Assembly (NCBI GenBank): GCA_033763975.1
Contig: JANRJM010000013.1
Coordinates: forward strand, 376,603-434,106
Direction of reading: 5' to 3'
Length of the DNA stretch: 57,504 nt
Source of the DNA: Planctomycetota bacterium
Lineage (GTDB): Bacteria; Planctomycetota; Phycisphaerae; Phycisphaerales; UBA1924
A program made the position numbers and the translations under genes. A model generated the notes under the pieces. It made no database searches. It saw only the letters and a list, made by a program, of their open reading frames with translations, and was not told the DNA's origin. Below are positions 29,564 through 49,116 of the stretch, in pieces (positions within the stretch are counted from its first letter, which is position 1; every line of letters starts with the position of its first letter).

Positions 29564-29974
29564 TCAGGCCGCGGTGTACTGCCCGCGCGAGACCTTCTTG
29601 AACAGGTCCTTGTGCTTCAGGAGGCACGCGTTGACGATGGTGCGGAAGTTCTCGGCGTTGGTTTTGTAGCCGGCCTTGACGACGGCGTCGGCCACCTCGG
29701 TGACGCCCATCTGCTTGCCCTTCAGCACCGCGGCGAGCGCCGACGCCAGCGTGCCGGAGTTGTCGCGCCGCGTGGCGCCCTGCGAGCCACGACCACGCCC
29801 GGACCCCGTGGACTCCCCAAGTTCGCGGAGCTGCGCGTTGAGCTTCTCCACGCGGGCCATGAGCCGGTCGCGCTCGCGACGCACGTCCGCCGCGCGCCCG
29901 CGCCGACGCTCGAGTTCCTTCATCAGCTGCGCAGCCGACACACCGCTCAGACCCGAGCTCGCACGTTTCGCCAT
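29564..29974 (-). CDS. Coiled-coil / winged-helix-like small protein
   Basis: A 136-aa protein. Residues of about 10-50 form a basic coiled coil (LMKELERRRGRAADVRRERDR and following). A Gly/Ser/Arg linker leads to a C-terminal region of about 60 residues (ALAAVLKGKQMGVTEVADAV, then FRTIVNACL, and a Lys-rich end) with the helix-helix-helix-wing pattern of a winged-helix domain. DNA binding is a prediction. Homologues of this architecture are familiar in planctomycetes without known function. AAGGAG 8 nt before the ATG fixes the start, and a good promoter lies upstream. Confidence 0.7.
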   Translation of the reverse strand: MAKRASSGLSGVSAAQLMKELERRRGRAADVRRERDRLMARVEKLNAQLRELGESTGSGRGRGSQGATRRDNSGTLASALAAVLKGKQMGVTEVADAVVKAGYKTNAENFRTIVNACLLKHKDLFKKVSRGQYTAA

Positions 29975-30097
29975 TACCAAAGCTCCTTATGAAGATCCAT
30001 CAACAGGCGGCCATCGCCGCCATAAACCCGACGCACAAAGTCGAGCGAGACTCGGCAGAAGTCCCTCGCGATCGCGGGAGAAGCGAGTCCTAACAGC

Positions 30098-30218: not shown

Positions 30219-31274
30219 TCAACCGCCCGTTGTTATTCCCAGCCTTGACATGAGTGCGTCAAAGTGATCCAACCCGTAGAACTCGAGTGTCACCCGCCCC
30301 CGCTTCCCGCCGCGATCCGTCGAGATCACGACCTTGGTTCCCAGTTGTTGACCGATCCGGCGCTGCAAGTCGGACAGCACGGCGAGGCGCGCGTCATCCC
30401 TGCCTGACACACCCCGACCCGTTCCCTCGCGCGGCGGAACCCGCCCCGCCTGGATCAGACGCTCCAGCGCGCGCACGCTCATCTCCTCGCGGGCCGCCCG
30501 CCCCGCGAGCACCGCCCGCAGCGCCCGGTCCCCCACCGCCAGCAGCGCGCGCGCGTGCCCGGCGCTCAGCGTCCCCGCCGACACCAGTGTCGCGATCTCC
30601 GGCTCCAGTTCCGTGAGCCGGATCAGGTTCGCAACAGTCGGGCGCTCCAGCCCCACGCGCTCGGCCAGCTGCGCGTGCGACAGCTCGAACCGCTCGGACA
30701 ACGATCGCAACGCCCAGGCCCGCTCCATCGGGTTCAGGTCCTCGCGCTGCACATTCTCCACCAGCGCCTGCTCGGCCGCCTGCTCGTCGCTCAGGTCGCG
30801 CACCAGCGCCGGCAGCGTCGAAAGCCCCGCGATCTGTGCCGCCCGCCAACGCCGCTCTCCCGCGATCAACTCGTACCGCGTGCCGTCCGCCCCGCGCCGA
30901 GGCCGCACCAGCACCGGTTGCAACACGCCCGACCGCCGGATCGATTCCGCGAGTCGTGCCAGCGCGCCGTCGTCCATCACACGCCGCGGCTGGAACGGCG
31001 ACGGCGACACCTCCCCCACCGCGATTGACTGAAGGTCCGATAATGCAGCGTCTTCATCCCCGGAACGGGCGATTGAGCCCGTATTTGCCGCAGTATGCGT
31101 TGGGTTGGTGGGGATTGGCGCGCTCGCGCGGGCCGCGGCTTCACCGGGCGCTGGCTCTCGCCGCGCGGGGCCCGCGGGCACCTCGACGGGCACGTGTACA
31201 TGCAACAGGCTGGTCAACCCGCGTCCGAGCCGGCGCGGCTTGGCCGCGTCCGTTCCGCTTGCGCTCGCGTCCAT
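30219..31274 (-). CDS. parB: Chromosome-partitioning protein ParB
   Basis: A 351-aa CTP-dependent DNA-sliding clamp that loads at parS. RRLGRGLTSLL is the usual N-terminal motif before a Pro/Ala-rich linker. The catalytic core shows SPFQPRRVMDD, GVLQPVLVRP, YELIAGERRWRAAQ (the GERRxRA box) and ALVENVQREDLNPME. The helix-turn-helix is around LSHAQLAERVGLERPTVANLIRL, and a C-terminal dimer domain follows. AAGGAG 6 nt before the ATG at 31274 fixes the start. No parA lies on either side; three parS-like sites lie within 0.7 kb upstream. Confidence 0.95.
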   Translation of the reverse strand: MDASASGTDAAKPRRLGRGLTSLLHVHVPVEVPAGPARREPAPGEAAARASAPIPTNPTHTAANTGSIARSGDEDAALSDLQSIAVGEVSPSPFQPRRVMDDGALARLAESIRRSGVLQPVLVRPRRGADGTRYELIAGERRWRAAQIAGLSTLPALVRDLSDEQAAEQALVENVQREDLNPMERAWALRSLSERFELSHAQLAERVGLERPTVANLIRLTELEPEIATLVSAGTLSAGHARALLAVGDRALRAVLAGRAAREEMSVRALERLIQAGRVPPREGTGRGVSGRDDARLAVLSDLQRRIGQQLGTKVVISTDRGGKRGRVTLEFYGLDHFDALMSRLGITTGG

Positions 31275-31335
31275 GCGAATCTCCTTGGTAGAGTCATCAT
31301 TCAAGCACCGCTGTCATCACGTGGAACCGACAACC

Positions 31336-31833
31336 ATGCCGTCAGAATCGCTCGACATCGAAGTCATCGCGCGGGGCGTGCTCCTCGCGGGCGACTACGT
31401 ACTCCTGTGCCGCTCCGTCCCGGGCGGCTACCGGTACCTCCCCGGCGGGCACGTCGAGTTCGGCGAGGCCGCGCACGCCGCGCTCGCGCGTGAGTTCGCG
31501 GAGGAGTCGGACCTGCCGGTGCGCGTGGGTCGGTGCGTGCACGTGGATGAACATGTCTTTCGGCAGAAGAGCCGCCTCCGCCACGAAATCAACGTGACGT
31601 TCCACGTGGAACAGGCCACGCCGGGCGCAGGCGCCGGTGCCGAAGTGGCGGGGCAGAACACGGCGGCCCCGGCGCCGGTCGCGAGTCGCGAGCCGGACAT
31701 CGCGTTCGACTGGGTCTCGGTGCGCGAGCTCGACAGCGCGGACCTGCGCCCCACCGCCGCGGCCGAGATCATCCGGCGCGTGCACGGGTTCCCGCACGAC
31801 CCGTTCGCGCGATGGTCGTCCGCCGTCGAGTAG
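31336..31833 (+). CDS. NUDIX hydrolase with an internal parS site
   Basis: A 165-aa enzyme expected to hydrolyse a nucleoside diphosphate linked to a variable group. The NUDIX box GGHVEFGEAAHAALAREFAEES is complete (G-x5-E-x7-REuxEE), with Ser in the place of the usual Gly. Residues 89-93 (FHVEQ) are encoded by a parS palindrome at 31598-31613, so these residues may be constrained by DNA function. It is divergent from parB with a 61-nt gap. No Shine-Dalgarno is evident. Confidence 0.88.
   Translation: MPSESLDIEVIARGVLLAGDYVLLCRSVPGGYRYLPGGHVEFGEAAHAALAREFAEESDLPVRVGRCVHVDEHVFRQKSRLRHEINVTFHVEQATPGAGAGAEVAGQNTAAPAPVASREPDIAFDWVSVRELDSADLRPTAAAEIIRRVHGFPHDPFARWSSAVE
31598..31613. promoter_or_regulatory. 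parS-like site 1 (inside NUDIX gene)
   Basis: A 14-bp perfect palindrome GTTCCACGTGGAAC, flanked C/A. It matches the ParB target consensus TGTTnCACGTGAAACA with the A-to-G/T-to-C symmetric variant. It lies within the coding sequence. Confidence 0.85.
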
Positions 31834-31849
31834 CGTTCCACGTGGAACA
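31834..31849. promoter_or_regulatory. parS-like site 2
   Basis: Again GTTCCACGTGGAAC with flanks C/A, starting at the base after the NUDIX stop codon. It is intergenic and 236 nt from site 1 (start to start). Confidence 0.88.
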
Positions 31850-31890
31850 CGACGCGTGCCGCGCTCCGACGCGCGGGCGGAGGTCGGTTC

Positions 31891-31906
31891 TGTTCCACGT
31901 GGAACG
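31891..31906. promoter_or_regulatory. parS-like site 3
   Basis: TGTTCCACGTGGAACG, intergenic, 57 nt from site 2 (start to start). It has the same 14-bp core as the other two. A degenerate half-site (CACGTGGAAC) is also found at 31318-31327 in the parB-NUDIX spacer. Confidence 0.88.
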
Positions 31907-31988: not shown

Positions 31989-33119
31989 TCACTCGCCCGC
32001 GTGGGCCGGCAGCAGCACCGTGTCTTCGGGCGCGAGCGTCACGAACACGTGCGAGCCGGGCGCGTCGAACGGCAGCGACGCCGGGGGATTCAGCACCGCG
32101 GCACGAATCACCTGGCCGCTCACGAGTTGCACCGAGTACTGCGCTGTGTCGCCCAGGTAGATTCGTTCTCGGACCTTGCCCTCAAGTCCTGGTCCGTCCG
32201 GCGCGAGGCGGACACCTTCGGGCCGGACCGAGACGAGCGCCGCCGACCCGGCCGCGGGGGGCGCGTCCGGGCTCACGGCCTCCACCACCCCGGCCGCGGT
32301 GCGCACGCGGACATGCACTCCGCCCGCAGAGGAGTGGGGGAGCGCCTGCACCTCGACCGCCCCTTCCAGAATATTTGTTTCACCAAGGAATTCAGCGACG
32401 AACCGCGTTCGCGGCCTGCGGTACAGGGCCGCCGGCGAACCCGCCTGTACCACCTTCCCCGCCGCCATCACCGCGACCCGGTCGGCCATGCTCAGCGCCT
32501 CCTTCTGGTCATGGGTGACGTAGACCGTGGTTATCCCTGAGTCCTTGCAGACGCGGCGGATTTCGGAGCGCAGTTCGAGGCGGAGTTTGGCGTCGAGGTT
32601 CGACAGCGGCTCGTCGAGCAGCAGCACGCTGGGGCGGATGACCATGGCGCGGGCGAGCGCGACGCGCTGCTGCTGCCCGCCGCTGAGCTGCGTCGGGCGC
32701 CGGGCGGCGAGATGGTCCATGCGGACGGCGGTGAGCGCTTCGCCGACGCGCCGCTCGCGCTCGTCGCGCGGGAGGCCCCGCACCTCGAGCCCGAAGGCGA
32801 CGTTCTGCGCGACCGTCATGTGCGGCCACAGCGCGTACGACTGGAACACCATGCCCGTGTTGCGCTTCTCGGGCGCCAGGTGCGTGACGTCGCGCGTGCC
32901 CGACGGCTCGCGGAAGTGGATCGAGCCGCCGGTGGGCTCGATGAACCCGGCGATCATGCGCAGCAGCGTGGTCTTGCCGCAGCCCGAGGGCCCGAGCAGG
33001 AAGAAGAGCTCGCCCGGCTCGATGGTGAGCGACACGCCGTCGACCGCGGCGGTGGGGCGGCCTCCGTCCACGGACGGGAAGACCTTCGTCAGCGCCTGGA
33101 TGTCGATCGCGGTGGACAC
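31989..33119 (-). CDS. ABC importer ATP-binding protein (MalK/PotA/FbpC type)
   Basis: A 376-aa ATPase of the importer class. Walker A is LLGPSGCGKTT, the Q-loop is GMVFQSYALWPHMTV, the signature is LSGGQQQRV and Walker B is LLLDEPLSNLD. The switch is TVYVTHDQKEALSMADR. A C-terminal TOBE domain follows (VSVRPEGVRL, IYLGDTAQYSVQL). The GTG at 33119 is preferred over the one at 33125 because TACGCT (33133-33128) lies 8 nt before it and only 2 nt before the other. No permease or binding-protein gene adjoins it, so the substrate (iron, polyamine or sugar) cannot be set. Confidence 0.9.
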   Translation of the reverse strand: MSTAIDIQALTKVFPSVDGGRPTAAVDGVSLTIEPGELFFLLGPSGCGKTTLLRMIAGFIEPTGGSIHFREPSGTRDVTHLAPEKRNTGMVFQSYALWPHMTVAQNVAFGLEVRGLPRDERERRVGEALTAVRMDHLAARRPTQLSGGQQQRVALARAMVIRPSVLLLDEPLSNLDAKLRLELRSEIRRVCKDSGITTVYVTHDQKEALSMADRVAVMAAGKVVQAGSPAALYRRPRTRFVAEFLGETNILEGAVEVQALPHSSAGGVHVRVRTAAGVVEAVSPDAPPAAGSAALVSVRPEGVRLAPDGPGLEGKVRERIYLGDTAQYSVQLVSGQVIRAAVLNPPASLPFDAPGSHVFVTLAPEDTVLLPAHAGE

Positions 33120-33152
33120 GGGCACGGAGCGTAGCAGACAGGGGGCGTTCGA

Positions 33153-33686
33153 TCAGGAGTCGTGCAGCGACATCATGAACGCGATGGCACCAGCGGACGG
33201 CGAAGGTGCGTCTGCGACCGCACGAAAGCCGCACGCGAGGTGGGCGGGCACGCTGATCTCTGCGAACTCTGGCGCGGTATCGCTGGCGAACTCGCGAAGC
33301 CCGCGTTGGACGGCCCATCGCCGCGCGCCATCGACCAGCGCTCGGCCGACGCCACCGACGCGGGATTCGGGGCGGACATACCAGCCTTCGAGATACGCGA
33401 CGGGAGACGTTCGGCAGCCAGCCGCGGCCTCGCGGACCGAGACCTCGGCGAAGCCAATCGCCCGAGCCGGTTCGTCGACGACGGCGATGAGCACAATGTG
33501 AGGTATGTTGTCGATGGTTCCATCGACGAAGTACCGCTCGATCTCGCTCGCGTGCGTGCTGGCTTCGTCGGGCCACAGCGCGGCACGGAGCTCGAGCCAT
33601 TGCTCAAGATCGTCGGGCTGTGCGGGCCGAACAAGCACGATCTCGATTCCTCGCTGTGCGGTGCGATTCGACGCGTCCCGCATCAT
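33153..33686 (-). CDS. GNAT acetyltransferase, aminoglycoside 6'-N-acetyltransferase-like
   Basis: A 177-aa GCN5-type acetyltransferase. The pattern DLEQWLELRAALWPDEAS, IGFAEVSVREAAAGC, SPVAYLEGWYVRPESRVGGVGRALV (acetyl-CoA-binding R/GxGxGR/A loop) and GLREFASDT, ending HLACGFRAV, is that of the AAC(6')-I aminoglycoside acetyltransferases. These inactivate aminoglycosides with acetyl-CoA. Whether this chromosomal version does so or has another amine substrate is unknown. Two ATGs are in tandem (33686, 33683). The gene appears somewhat less GC-rich than neighbours. Confidence 0.85.
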   Translation of the reverse strand: MMRDASNRTAQRGIEIVLVRPAQPDDLEQWLELRAALWPDEASTHASEIERYFVDGTIDNIPHIVLIAVVDEPARAIGFAEVSVREAAAGCRTSPVAYLEGWYVRPESRVGGVGRALVDGARRWAVQRGLREFASDTAPEFAEISVPAHLACGFRAVADAPSPSAGAIAFMMSLHDS

Positions 33687-47865: not shown

Positions 47866-49116
47866 TTACGAGACCGTCAGCGTCGGGCGCGTCTGGCCCT
47901 GGCGGAGCGACGCGAGCGCGACCTGGCCTTCCAGGTTCCGCACGAGGCGCTCGAGGTCGGCGCGGAGGGCCGTGCCCGGCGTGTCGGCGCCGGTGAAGTT
48001 CGCCGTGGGGTTCCCCGCGTCGCTGTTCTGGCGCAGGGCCGTGGTGATTGGCACACCCCCCAGGTACGGGGTGTTGAGCCGCCGGGCCATGGCCTCGGCC
48101 CCGCCCCGCCCGAAGATGTCGTACTCCTTCCCGTCGTCGCCCACGAAGTAGCTCATGTTCTCGACGACGCCCAGCAGCGGGACGCCGAGCTGCTCGAACA
48201 TCCGGGCGGCACGCACGGCGTCGTCCTGCGCCACCTTCTGCGGCGTGCACACGATGACCGCGCCCGTCAGTTTCAGCAACTGCGCCATCGTCAGCGAGAC
48301 GTCGCCCGTGCCGGGGGGCAGGTCAATCACGAGATAGTCGAGTTCGCCCCAGCGGGTCTGCTCGAGCAACTGCTTGAACGCGCCGTGCGCCATCGGCCCA
48401 CGCCAGATCAGGGGCTTGTCGGGCTGCACGAGGGCGCCCATCGTCATGCACCGCACGCCGTGCGACAGGAACGGCTCGAGCACGCCCTCGCGGACGATCG
48501 GCTCGAGCCCGCCCAGCCCGAGCATCGTCGGCATCGACGGGCCGTAGATGTCGGCGTCGAGCAGCCCGACGCGGTGGCGCGCCCGTGCGAGCCCGACAGC
48601 GAGGTTGAGAGCGATGGTGCTCTTGCCCACGCCGCCCTTGCCCGCGCCCACGGCGATGACGTGCGCCACGCCTTCGAGCCCCGAGACGCCCGGGTTGAGG
48701 CCCGGGATCGGCGTGTGCCCGGCGGCGGCCTGGCGCGACGGCGGCGGGGCTTGCTCGCGCGCGGAAACAGGCTCGCGCGGGGAGTTCGTCGCCGGGCCGG
48801 CGGCCGGGGGCGCGGGGCGCGCCGACCCGCCGAAGCGCTCGGTCTGCACCACGGTCCCCGCGTGATCCACGAACTCGACGACGAGCGCGTCCACCTGCTC
48901 GCCCGCGGCTCGGGCGGCCGCCACCAGCCCGTCGTACGCCGTCCGGGCCGCGGTCCGTCGTTGGTCGGGCGCATCGCCCGCGTGCTGGAGTTTCACCGAC
49001 GCGTACCCGTCGCACGCGGCGACCCAGACGACGCGATCACCACCCAGCGCGGGCGACCCGTCGGGCCCGCGCAATCCACGCAATGCTTCAAGAACAAACG
49101 ACTTGGTGAGCCCCAT
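47866..49116 (-). CDS. Mrp/NBP35 family ATPase lacking the CxxC
   Basis: A 416-aa P-loop protein of the ApbC/Mrp type that normally carries Fe-S clusters to apo-proteins. An N-terminal DUF59-like domain (residues 1-95) is followed by a Pro/Ala linker, then the deviant Walker A GAGKGGVGKST (about 157-167), DADIYGPSMPTMLGL, GPMAHGAFKQLL and IDLPPGTGDVSLTM. The usual ENMSYFxCPxC is ENMSYFVGDDGKEYDIFG, with both cysteines missing. Cluster binding must then use other residues or be absent. TACCAT 5 nt before the ATG suggests a leaderless start. Confidence 0.88.
   Translation of the reverse strand: MGLTKSFVLEALRGLRGPDGSPALGGDRVVWVAACDGYASVKLQHAGDAPDQRRTAARTAYDGLVAAARAAGEQVDALVVEFVDHAGTVVQTERFGGSARPAPPAAGPATNSPREPVSAREQAPPPSRQAAAGHTPIPGLNPGVSGLEGVAHVIAVGAGKGGVGKSTIALNLAVGLARARHRVGLLDADIYGPSMPTMLGLGGLEPIVREGVLEPFLSHGVRCMTMGALVQPDKPLIWRGPMAHGAFKQLLEQTRWGELDYLVIDLPPGTGDVSLTMAQLLKLTGAVIVCTPQKVAQDDAVRAARMFEQLGVPLLGVVENMSYFVGDDGKEYDIFGRGGAEAMARRLNTPYLGGVPITTALRQNSDAGNPTANFTGADTPGTALRADLERLVRNLEGQVALASLRQGQTRPTLTVS

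Follow-up and report, generated by a model that had tools for sequence, protein, structure and literature searches.

What do three identical copies of a palindrome do beside a parB gene, when one of them lies inside the reading frame of another protein and parA is nowhere next to it? The question arises from a window (the whole stretch of DNA analysed, 57,504 nt, C13:376603-434106) of the planctomycete genome G000, a 3.27 Mb draft in 19 contigs whose host we infer to be a member of the order Phycisphaerales. Comparison with relatives makes us confident that the three sites constitute a chromosomal parS centromere of the familiar ParB type, belonging to a split ParABS system and placed partly inside a NUDIX hydrolase gene. 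The features on which we draw are collected in Table 1.

Table 1. Features of the parB region and of the unlinked genes discussed. Positions are those of the window unless a contig (C) or fetched locus (L) is named.
Feature	Position	Strand	Remarks
parB (351 aa from ATG)	30219..31274	-	ParB_N, HTH_ParB, ParB_C; LGRGL and GERRWRA motifs
CACGTGGAAC half-site	31318..31327	+	flanked by the start codons of parB and NUDIX; other half without a match
NUDIX hydrolase gene	31336..31833	+	PF00293; divergent from parB; carries site 1
parS-like site 1 (core of CGTTCCACGTGGAACA)	31599..31612	.	inside the NUDIX gene; exact palindrome; codon position conserved in relatives
parS-like site 2	31835..31848	.	2 nt past the NUDIX stop codon; exact palindrome
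parS-like site 3	31892..31905	.	intergenic; NUDIX and ABC genes converge on it; exact palindrome
ABC transporter ATPase gene	31989..33125	-	ABC_tran and TOBE_2; convergent with the NUDIX gene; no parS inside it here
Soj-like stand-alone ParA, 299 aa	C9:108377-109276 (L004:1153-2052)	-	AAA_31 E 1.3e-52, best of the genome
CBM48-fused second ParA	C4:48042-49559 (L005:523-2043)	-	beside aroB; C-terminal AMPK1_CBM/CBM48
Histidine-kinase-like frames with distal sites	L108:3964-4965, L156:4149-5018, L138:3448-4176	+	Pfam HATPase_c E 1e-16 to 2e-25

A palindrome cluster beside parB

The first-pass annotation of this DNA had described a 14-mer present exactly three times within 310 nt and noticed no other copy in the window. 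A pattern search confirms both points: GTTCCACGTGGAAC, a perfect palindrome, has three exact copies in the window and no match with one or two mismatches, and the six matches with three mismatches bring the total to nine, against a mean of 2.58 in shuffled sequence. Extended to the whole genome, a check that the same annotation had proposed, the search returns these three copies, all inside the 307 bp of the cluster, and no scatter over unrelated sites; about 0.007 copies would be expected genome-wide from the base composition of the window, and reversed GTTCCACGTGGAAC is absent. The looser pattern GTTNCACGTGNAAC, at up to two mismatches, matches 70 places in the genome versus 121 for its reversed control, so degenerate sites are not enriched here. 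The cluster lies 325-631 bp upstream of parB, its nearest edge 325 bp from the parB ATG, and the half-site CACGTGGAAC closer to parB is possibly a degenerate or decayed fourth site.

We place the start of parB at an ATG that follows AAGGAG at 31274, where the list of open reading frames instead uses a TTG at 31304. Its product scores above cut-off with PF02195, PF17762 and PF23552, has Spo0J (6sdk, E 3.6e-47) as its best PDB match and is the single match to the ParB_N profile in the whole genome. GERRxRA is the CTP-site motif of ParB, and 142 of 144 ParB frames carry it. LG[RK]GL is found in 140 of the same 144; LG-R/K-GL is named as the ParA-binding motif of ParB in PMC12704722. The domain set, together with the CTP-site and ParA-binding motifs, is that of B. 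subtilis Spo0J and of the Caulobacter and Pseudomonas centromeres, and chromosomal ParB-parS centromeres share with this locus a near-identical palindrome and the placement of sites beside parB.

Could this be the binding array of a Noc-type nucleoid-occlusion protein instead, or a plasmid-type partition locus? The NCBIfam Noc model does match the ParB, at 187 bits, which is far under the model cut-off of 315; the Noc core is CCCGGG, whereas the sites contain CACGTG; and the genome encodes one ParB_N protein, in an arrangement that recurs across the order. We find this barely conceivable.

As for the surroundings, a 138-aa frame downstream of parB (29564-29980, minus strand) matches nothing in Pfam or NCBIfam, and a GNAT acetyltransferase gene at 33153-33686 (minus strand) resembles models of AAC(6') aminoglycoside acetyltransferases at scores below cut-off. 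The ABC gene is also a neighbour of the parB region in part of the relatives, where, of 44 loci in which ABC was matched, just three have a site in the matched part. An SMC gene is present in the genome, on contig C18.

Sites at parB across the Phycisphaerales

Of the 151 genomes of the order, our own included, 146 have a ParB match. The parB locus was read in 130 of these, the remaining 16 being the lowest-scoring matches and those at the end of the list; with 18 named loci added, the 130 make 148 parB stretches, four of which are duplicates. At least one site with no more than one mismatch lies near parB in 123 of the 130 genomes, and at least two sites in 108. At this threshold the parB loci of the other seven (G059, G086, G101, G104, G137, G064 and G145) have none, and site-less loci make up five of the 44 within the genome's own family. 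Over 694 kb of parB stretches, GTTNCACGTGNAAC is matched 180 times exactly and 78 times with one mismatch, compared with 0 and 1 for the reversed pattern. Exact GTTYCACGTGRAAC occurs in 113 of the 151 genomes, with 256 sites in total versus 2 for the reversed pattern; two per genome is the commonest number (60 genomes), followed by one (32) and three (11), with 38 genomes having none. Together, the rarity of GTTCCACGTGGAAC in its own genome and these order-wide counts against reversed controls rule out a chance origin of the copies.

Indeed, 179 of the 210 exact sites in the 130 genomes read fall inside the fetched parB stretch. The putative centromeres of the Phycisphaerales are thus small and hug parB, and the compact cluster that the first-pass annotation had seen beside parB is strongly supported by this comparison with relatives. 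Unlike other chromosomal ParB-parS centromeres, 103 of the 151 order genomes hold just one to three exact sites, and one of these here sits at conserved NUDIX codons. One genome, G103, has 24 exact parS-like sites, of which those listed are spread over many contigs.

The same comparison bears on whether ParB is the protein that reads the palindrome. Regulator sites often have CACGTG as their core, and the window's copies lie in and just past the NUDIX gene; perhaps, then, they are operators through which another regulator, such as an E-box-like CACGTG repressor, controls the NUDIX or ABC genes. A divergent NUDIX gene is the neighbour of parB in 36 of the 44 own-family loci versus three of the 86 others, and outside the family 84 of 86 loci nevertheless have a site near parB while a NUDIX gene is detectable in three. 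The sites therefore track parB and not NUDIX, and we hold an operator for another regulator to be highly improbable.

The palindrome itself varies within the order. Altered cores occur as CCCGTG/CACGGG in part of family f2 and some f1 genera, and as CACATG/CATGTG in several f1 genera. In G104, GTTCCGCGCGGAAC makes up 10 of the 17 GTTCCNNNNGGAAC matches, five of them upstream of parB (L149), and its presence in place of a CACGTG core is a possible switch of parS specificity. Such variants suggest that ParB and parS change together in the order. A general scan with GTTCCNNNNGGAAC of 15 own-family genomes without exact GTTYCACGTGRAAC rose above the reversed control in five (G104, G122, G125, G137 and G140) and stayed at or below it in ten, and so proves little by itself.

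Where do these loci lie relative to the origin? According to PMC9298525, parS is found near oriC in almost 70% of the chromosomes studied. With contigs taken as circles, parB lies at most 154 kb from the best DnaA match in seven of nine single-contig relatives (19 kb in G025, 52 in G031, 84 in G068, 107 in G049, 137 in G055, 146 in G039 and 154 in G033), and 489 kb and 1.1 Mb away in G061 and G012. In our genome dnaA is on a contig other than that of parB. The genome has two DnaA-domain matches (C5:21653-22132 and C13:90943-91416), and each of the 16 genomes searched has at least two. The cumulative GC skew of C13 is lowest at about 410 kb, with the sites at 408 kb; this minimum is weak, noisy and flat towards the nearby contig end, and is at most suggestive of a position by the origin.

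A site within conserved codons of a NUDIX gene

Site 1 is read in the NUDIX frame as ACG TTC CAC GTG GAA CAG, or T-F-H-V-E-Q, in agreement with the residues FHVEQ that the first-pass annotation had assigned to a site inside a coding gene. In an AlphaFold2 model of the protein (mean pLDDT 88.9), FHVE (residues 89-92) closes a strand spanning 80-93 and is followed by a poorly modelled loop; Foldseek returns general MutT/NUDIX folds, including pyrimidine-nucleotide pyrophosphohydrolases, which name no substrate. Sites within genes are not peculiar to this lineage: in Pseudomonas aeruginosa nine of ten parS are predicted within coding sequences (PMC4368675), and are coding-compatible as here. What may distinguish the present case is that the same NUDIX position is kept over many genera of a family, with a codon signature.

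In a codon alignment of 51 parB-linked NUDIX genes (named loci included), the homologous codons (V)-F-H-V-E-(H/Q) carry the site in 38 (26 exact copies and 12 with a single mismatch); of the 13 site-less genes, one has two mismatches and twelve at least four. As background, six of 7,440 same-frame windows at least six codons away in the same genes come within one mismatch. We then ranked synonymous bias over 153 NUDIX codon columns against the genes' own codon usage, and the top three all fall within the 16-bp parS word: GAA at the E column (36/39 versus a background of 40.5%; binomial 1.5e-11), GTG at the second V column (36/41 versus 44.2%; 7.8e-9) and GTG at the V before F (34/39 versus 44.2%; 3.1e-8), these probabilities ignoring shared ancestry and the choice of columns. 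Because the three most codon-biased columns are parS positions, the DNA word appears to be selected beyond the protein sequence. A NUDIX paralogue offers no control for this bias, since 54 of the 55 genomes with a match have a single one.

Might the strand alone dictate the word, so that the NUDIX copy is a by-product of the F-H-V-E residues and parS consists of the two downstream copies only? The F is indeed kept in 49 of the 51 proteins, with or without the site. Yet synonymous codons are fixed far above background (GAA 36/39; GTG 36/41 and 34/39), the 13 site-less genes each differ at one or more F-H-V-E residues and include all three GAG codons of the E column, and G185 has lost the residue stretch and still has an exact site elsewhere in the same frame. 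We therefore regard a by-product as very unlikely, and keep to a parS copy selected within the gene.

A further sample points the same way. Among 35 new genomes, 31 of which were matched, there were 15 new genera, a set that leans to better NUDIX matches; 14 of the 15 keep the site at the same NUDIX codons (12 exactly, two with one mismatch), the fifteenth being that of G185. In 14 of the 15 the locus also encodes ParB, and the remaining one is truncated by a contig end. The embedded site can, it seems, also be lost, as it is missing from 13 of the 51 NUDIX genes; in the one congeneric genome, G143, it differs at a single position (GTTCCGCGTGGAAC), and no exact copy of the pattern occurs anywhere in that genome.

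Own-family genomes often have a more distal parS-like site further upstream as well. In ten loci that we opened, several of these distal sites fall inside a second reading frame, histidine-kinase-like in the three cases of Table 1.

What would the sites mean for the genes around them? Since ParB is reported to repress promoters near parS3 and parS4 (PMC5521831), autoregulation of the parB and NUDIX promoters by ParB is plausible by analogy.

ParA proteins encoded away from parB

The first-pass annotation had found parA missing from both sides of parB, and this holds: the parB stretch of the genome contains no ParA-like frame, the sole AAA_31 match in the window being a Mrp-type protein (47866-49116), and the canonical operon layout of parA next to parB is not found here. 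Nor did a search of all 148 parB stretches, counting duplicates, bring up a ParA-like frame, so that a split between parA and parB is the rule in the order, unlike in chromosomal ParB-parS centromeres: here parA lies on another contig, without a parB operon. A likely candidate for the distant parA for which a search had been advised lies on contig C9, and as this Soj-like protein is encoded there, an absent neighbour does not amount to a missing function.

The AAA_31 profile has six matches in the genome, two of them ParA-type. The first, the C9 protein, aligns nearly end to end with ParA/Soj structures (8ray, E 4.7e-56; 1wcv, E 3.1e-53; 6iub, E 1.1e-48), and for it no NCBIfam model reaches cut-off. 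All nine order members fetched have a counterpart, their second ParA match, at 58-70% identity, and a match outside the order but within the class is 41% identical. In the two relatives measured, G005 and G012, a ParA of this type lies 88 kb and 1.4 Mb from parB, respectively. The neighbouring gene reads like an undecaprenyl-phosphate sugar transferase, and polysaccharide-type genes are near. We consider the C9 protein the likely partner of ParB.

The second ParA-type protein, on C4, shares 43% identity with the first across 262 residues and ends in a carbohydrate-binding-like segment (PF16561, E 3.7e-13; PDB 1z0n, E 2.3e-8). It is matched in all 151 genomes, at least via the ATPase part. We inspected 50 proteins of this type (the 30 best matches and 20 chosen across families): the CBM48-like segment ends 44 of them and is absent in six, in one of which, G044, a stop lies inside the match. 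When 119 genomes of the phylum were sampled, six of them from the order, those among the matches listed that cover the segment are all from Phycisphaerales. In the nine single-contig relatives the distance from this gene to parB ranges from 56 kb to about 1.2 Mb; the shortest separation that we noticed, about 4 kb, is in G021. Thus, whilst the C9 protein resembles known ParA/Soj ATPases over nearly its full length, it differs from them in being unlinked to parB and in sharing its genome with a CBM48-fused ParA.

Which of these would serve ParB? Similarity leads us to favour the C9 protein over its C4 relative, which matches Soj less well (1wcv, E 1.9e-38 versus 3.1e-53) and is less conserved (41-64% in five members, versus 58-70%). 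The other AAA_31 matches were set aside: one is FlhG-like, on C1, another is the Mrp protein of the window, and in those of L007 (679 aa) and L009 (704 aa) the profile covers the C-terminal part only.

Taken with the sites, these genes outline how the system would work. ParB dimers carrying CTP would recognise palindromes of 14-16 bp, form closed clamps and spread out across the parB-NUDIX region, following the CTP clamp cycle described in PMC12704722; a ParA ATPase from elsewhere, most likely the Soj-like protein of C9, would move the region coated with ParB, which may also be where SMC is loaded. The NUDIX copy would have a dual use, its codons giving the end of a β-strand and its exact nucleotides being kept for ParB. 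What appears to be new is a parS copy at conserved codons of a NUDIX gene, in a system otherwise ordinary in kind. Among the papers listed in searches of open-access literature, which mostly lacks the subscription journals, none describes parS in a NUDIX gene or a ParA-CBM48 fusion.

Could the oddities of this locus be connected? One might imagine that CTP or related pyrimidine nucleotides are the substrates of the NUDIX hydrolase, which would so tune the CTP-switched ParB clamps on its own gene, and that the CBM48-ParA places storage polysaccharide on the same nucleoid platform. We rate this joint reading as unlikely, a long shot; if it were true, the centromere would be hard-wired in NUDIX codons by a functional tie, and segregation and carbon stores would be partitioned by sister ParAs.

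To conclude, the comparison gives a map of ParB-parS and of unlinked ParA genes in the Phycisphaerales, and brings to light a conserved and unexplained ParA-CBM48 fusion. Above all, nature here provides a clean instance of a protein-coding sequence seemingly also selected as a centromere, in which a homologous position, a measurable bias in synonymous codons, and the loss or shift of the site in some genera allow the cost and turnover of intragenic parS to be studied.
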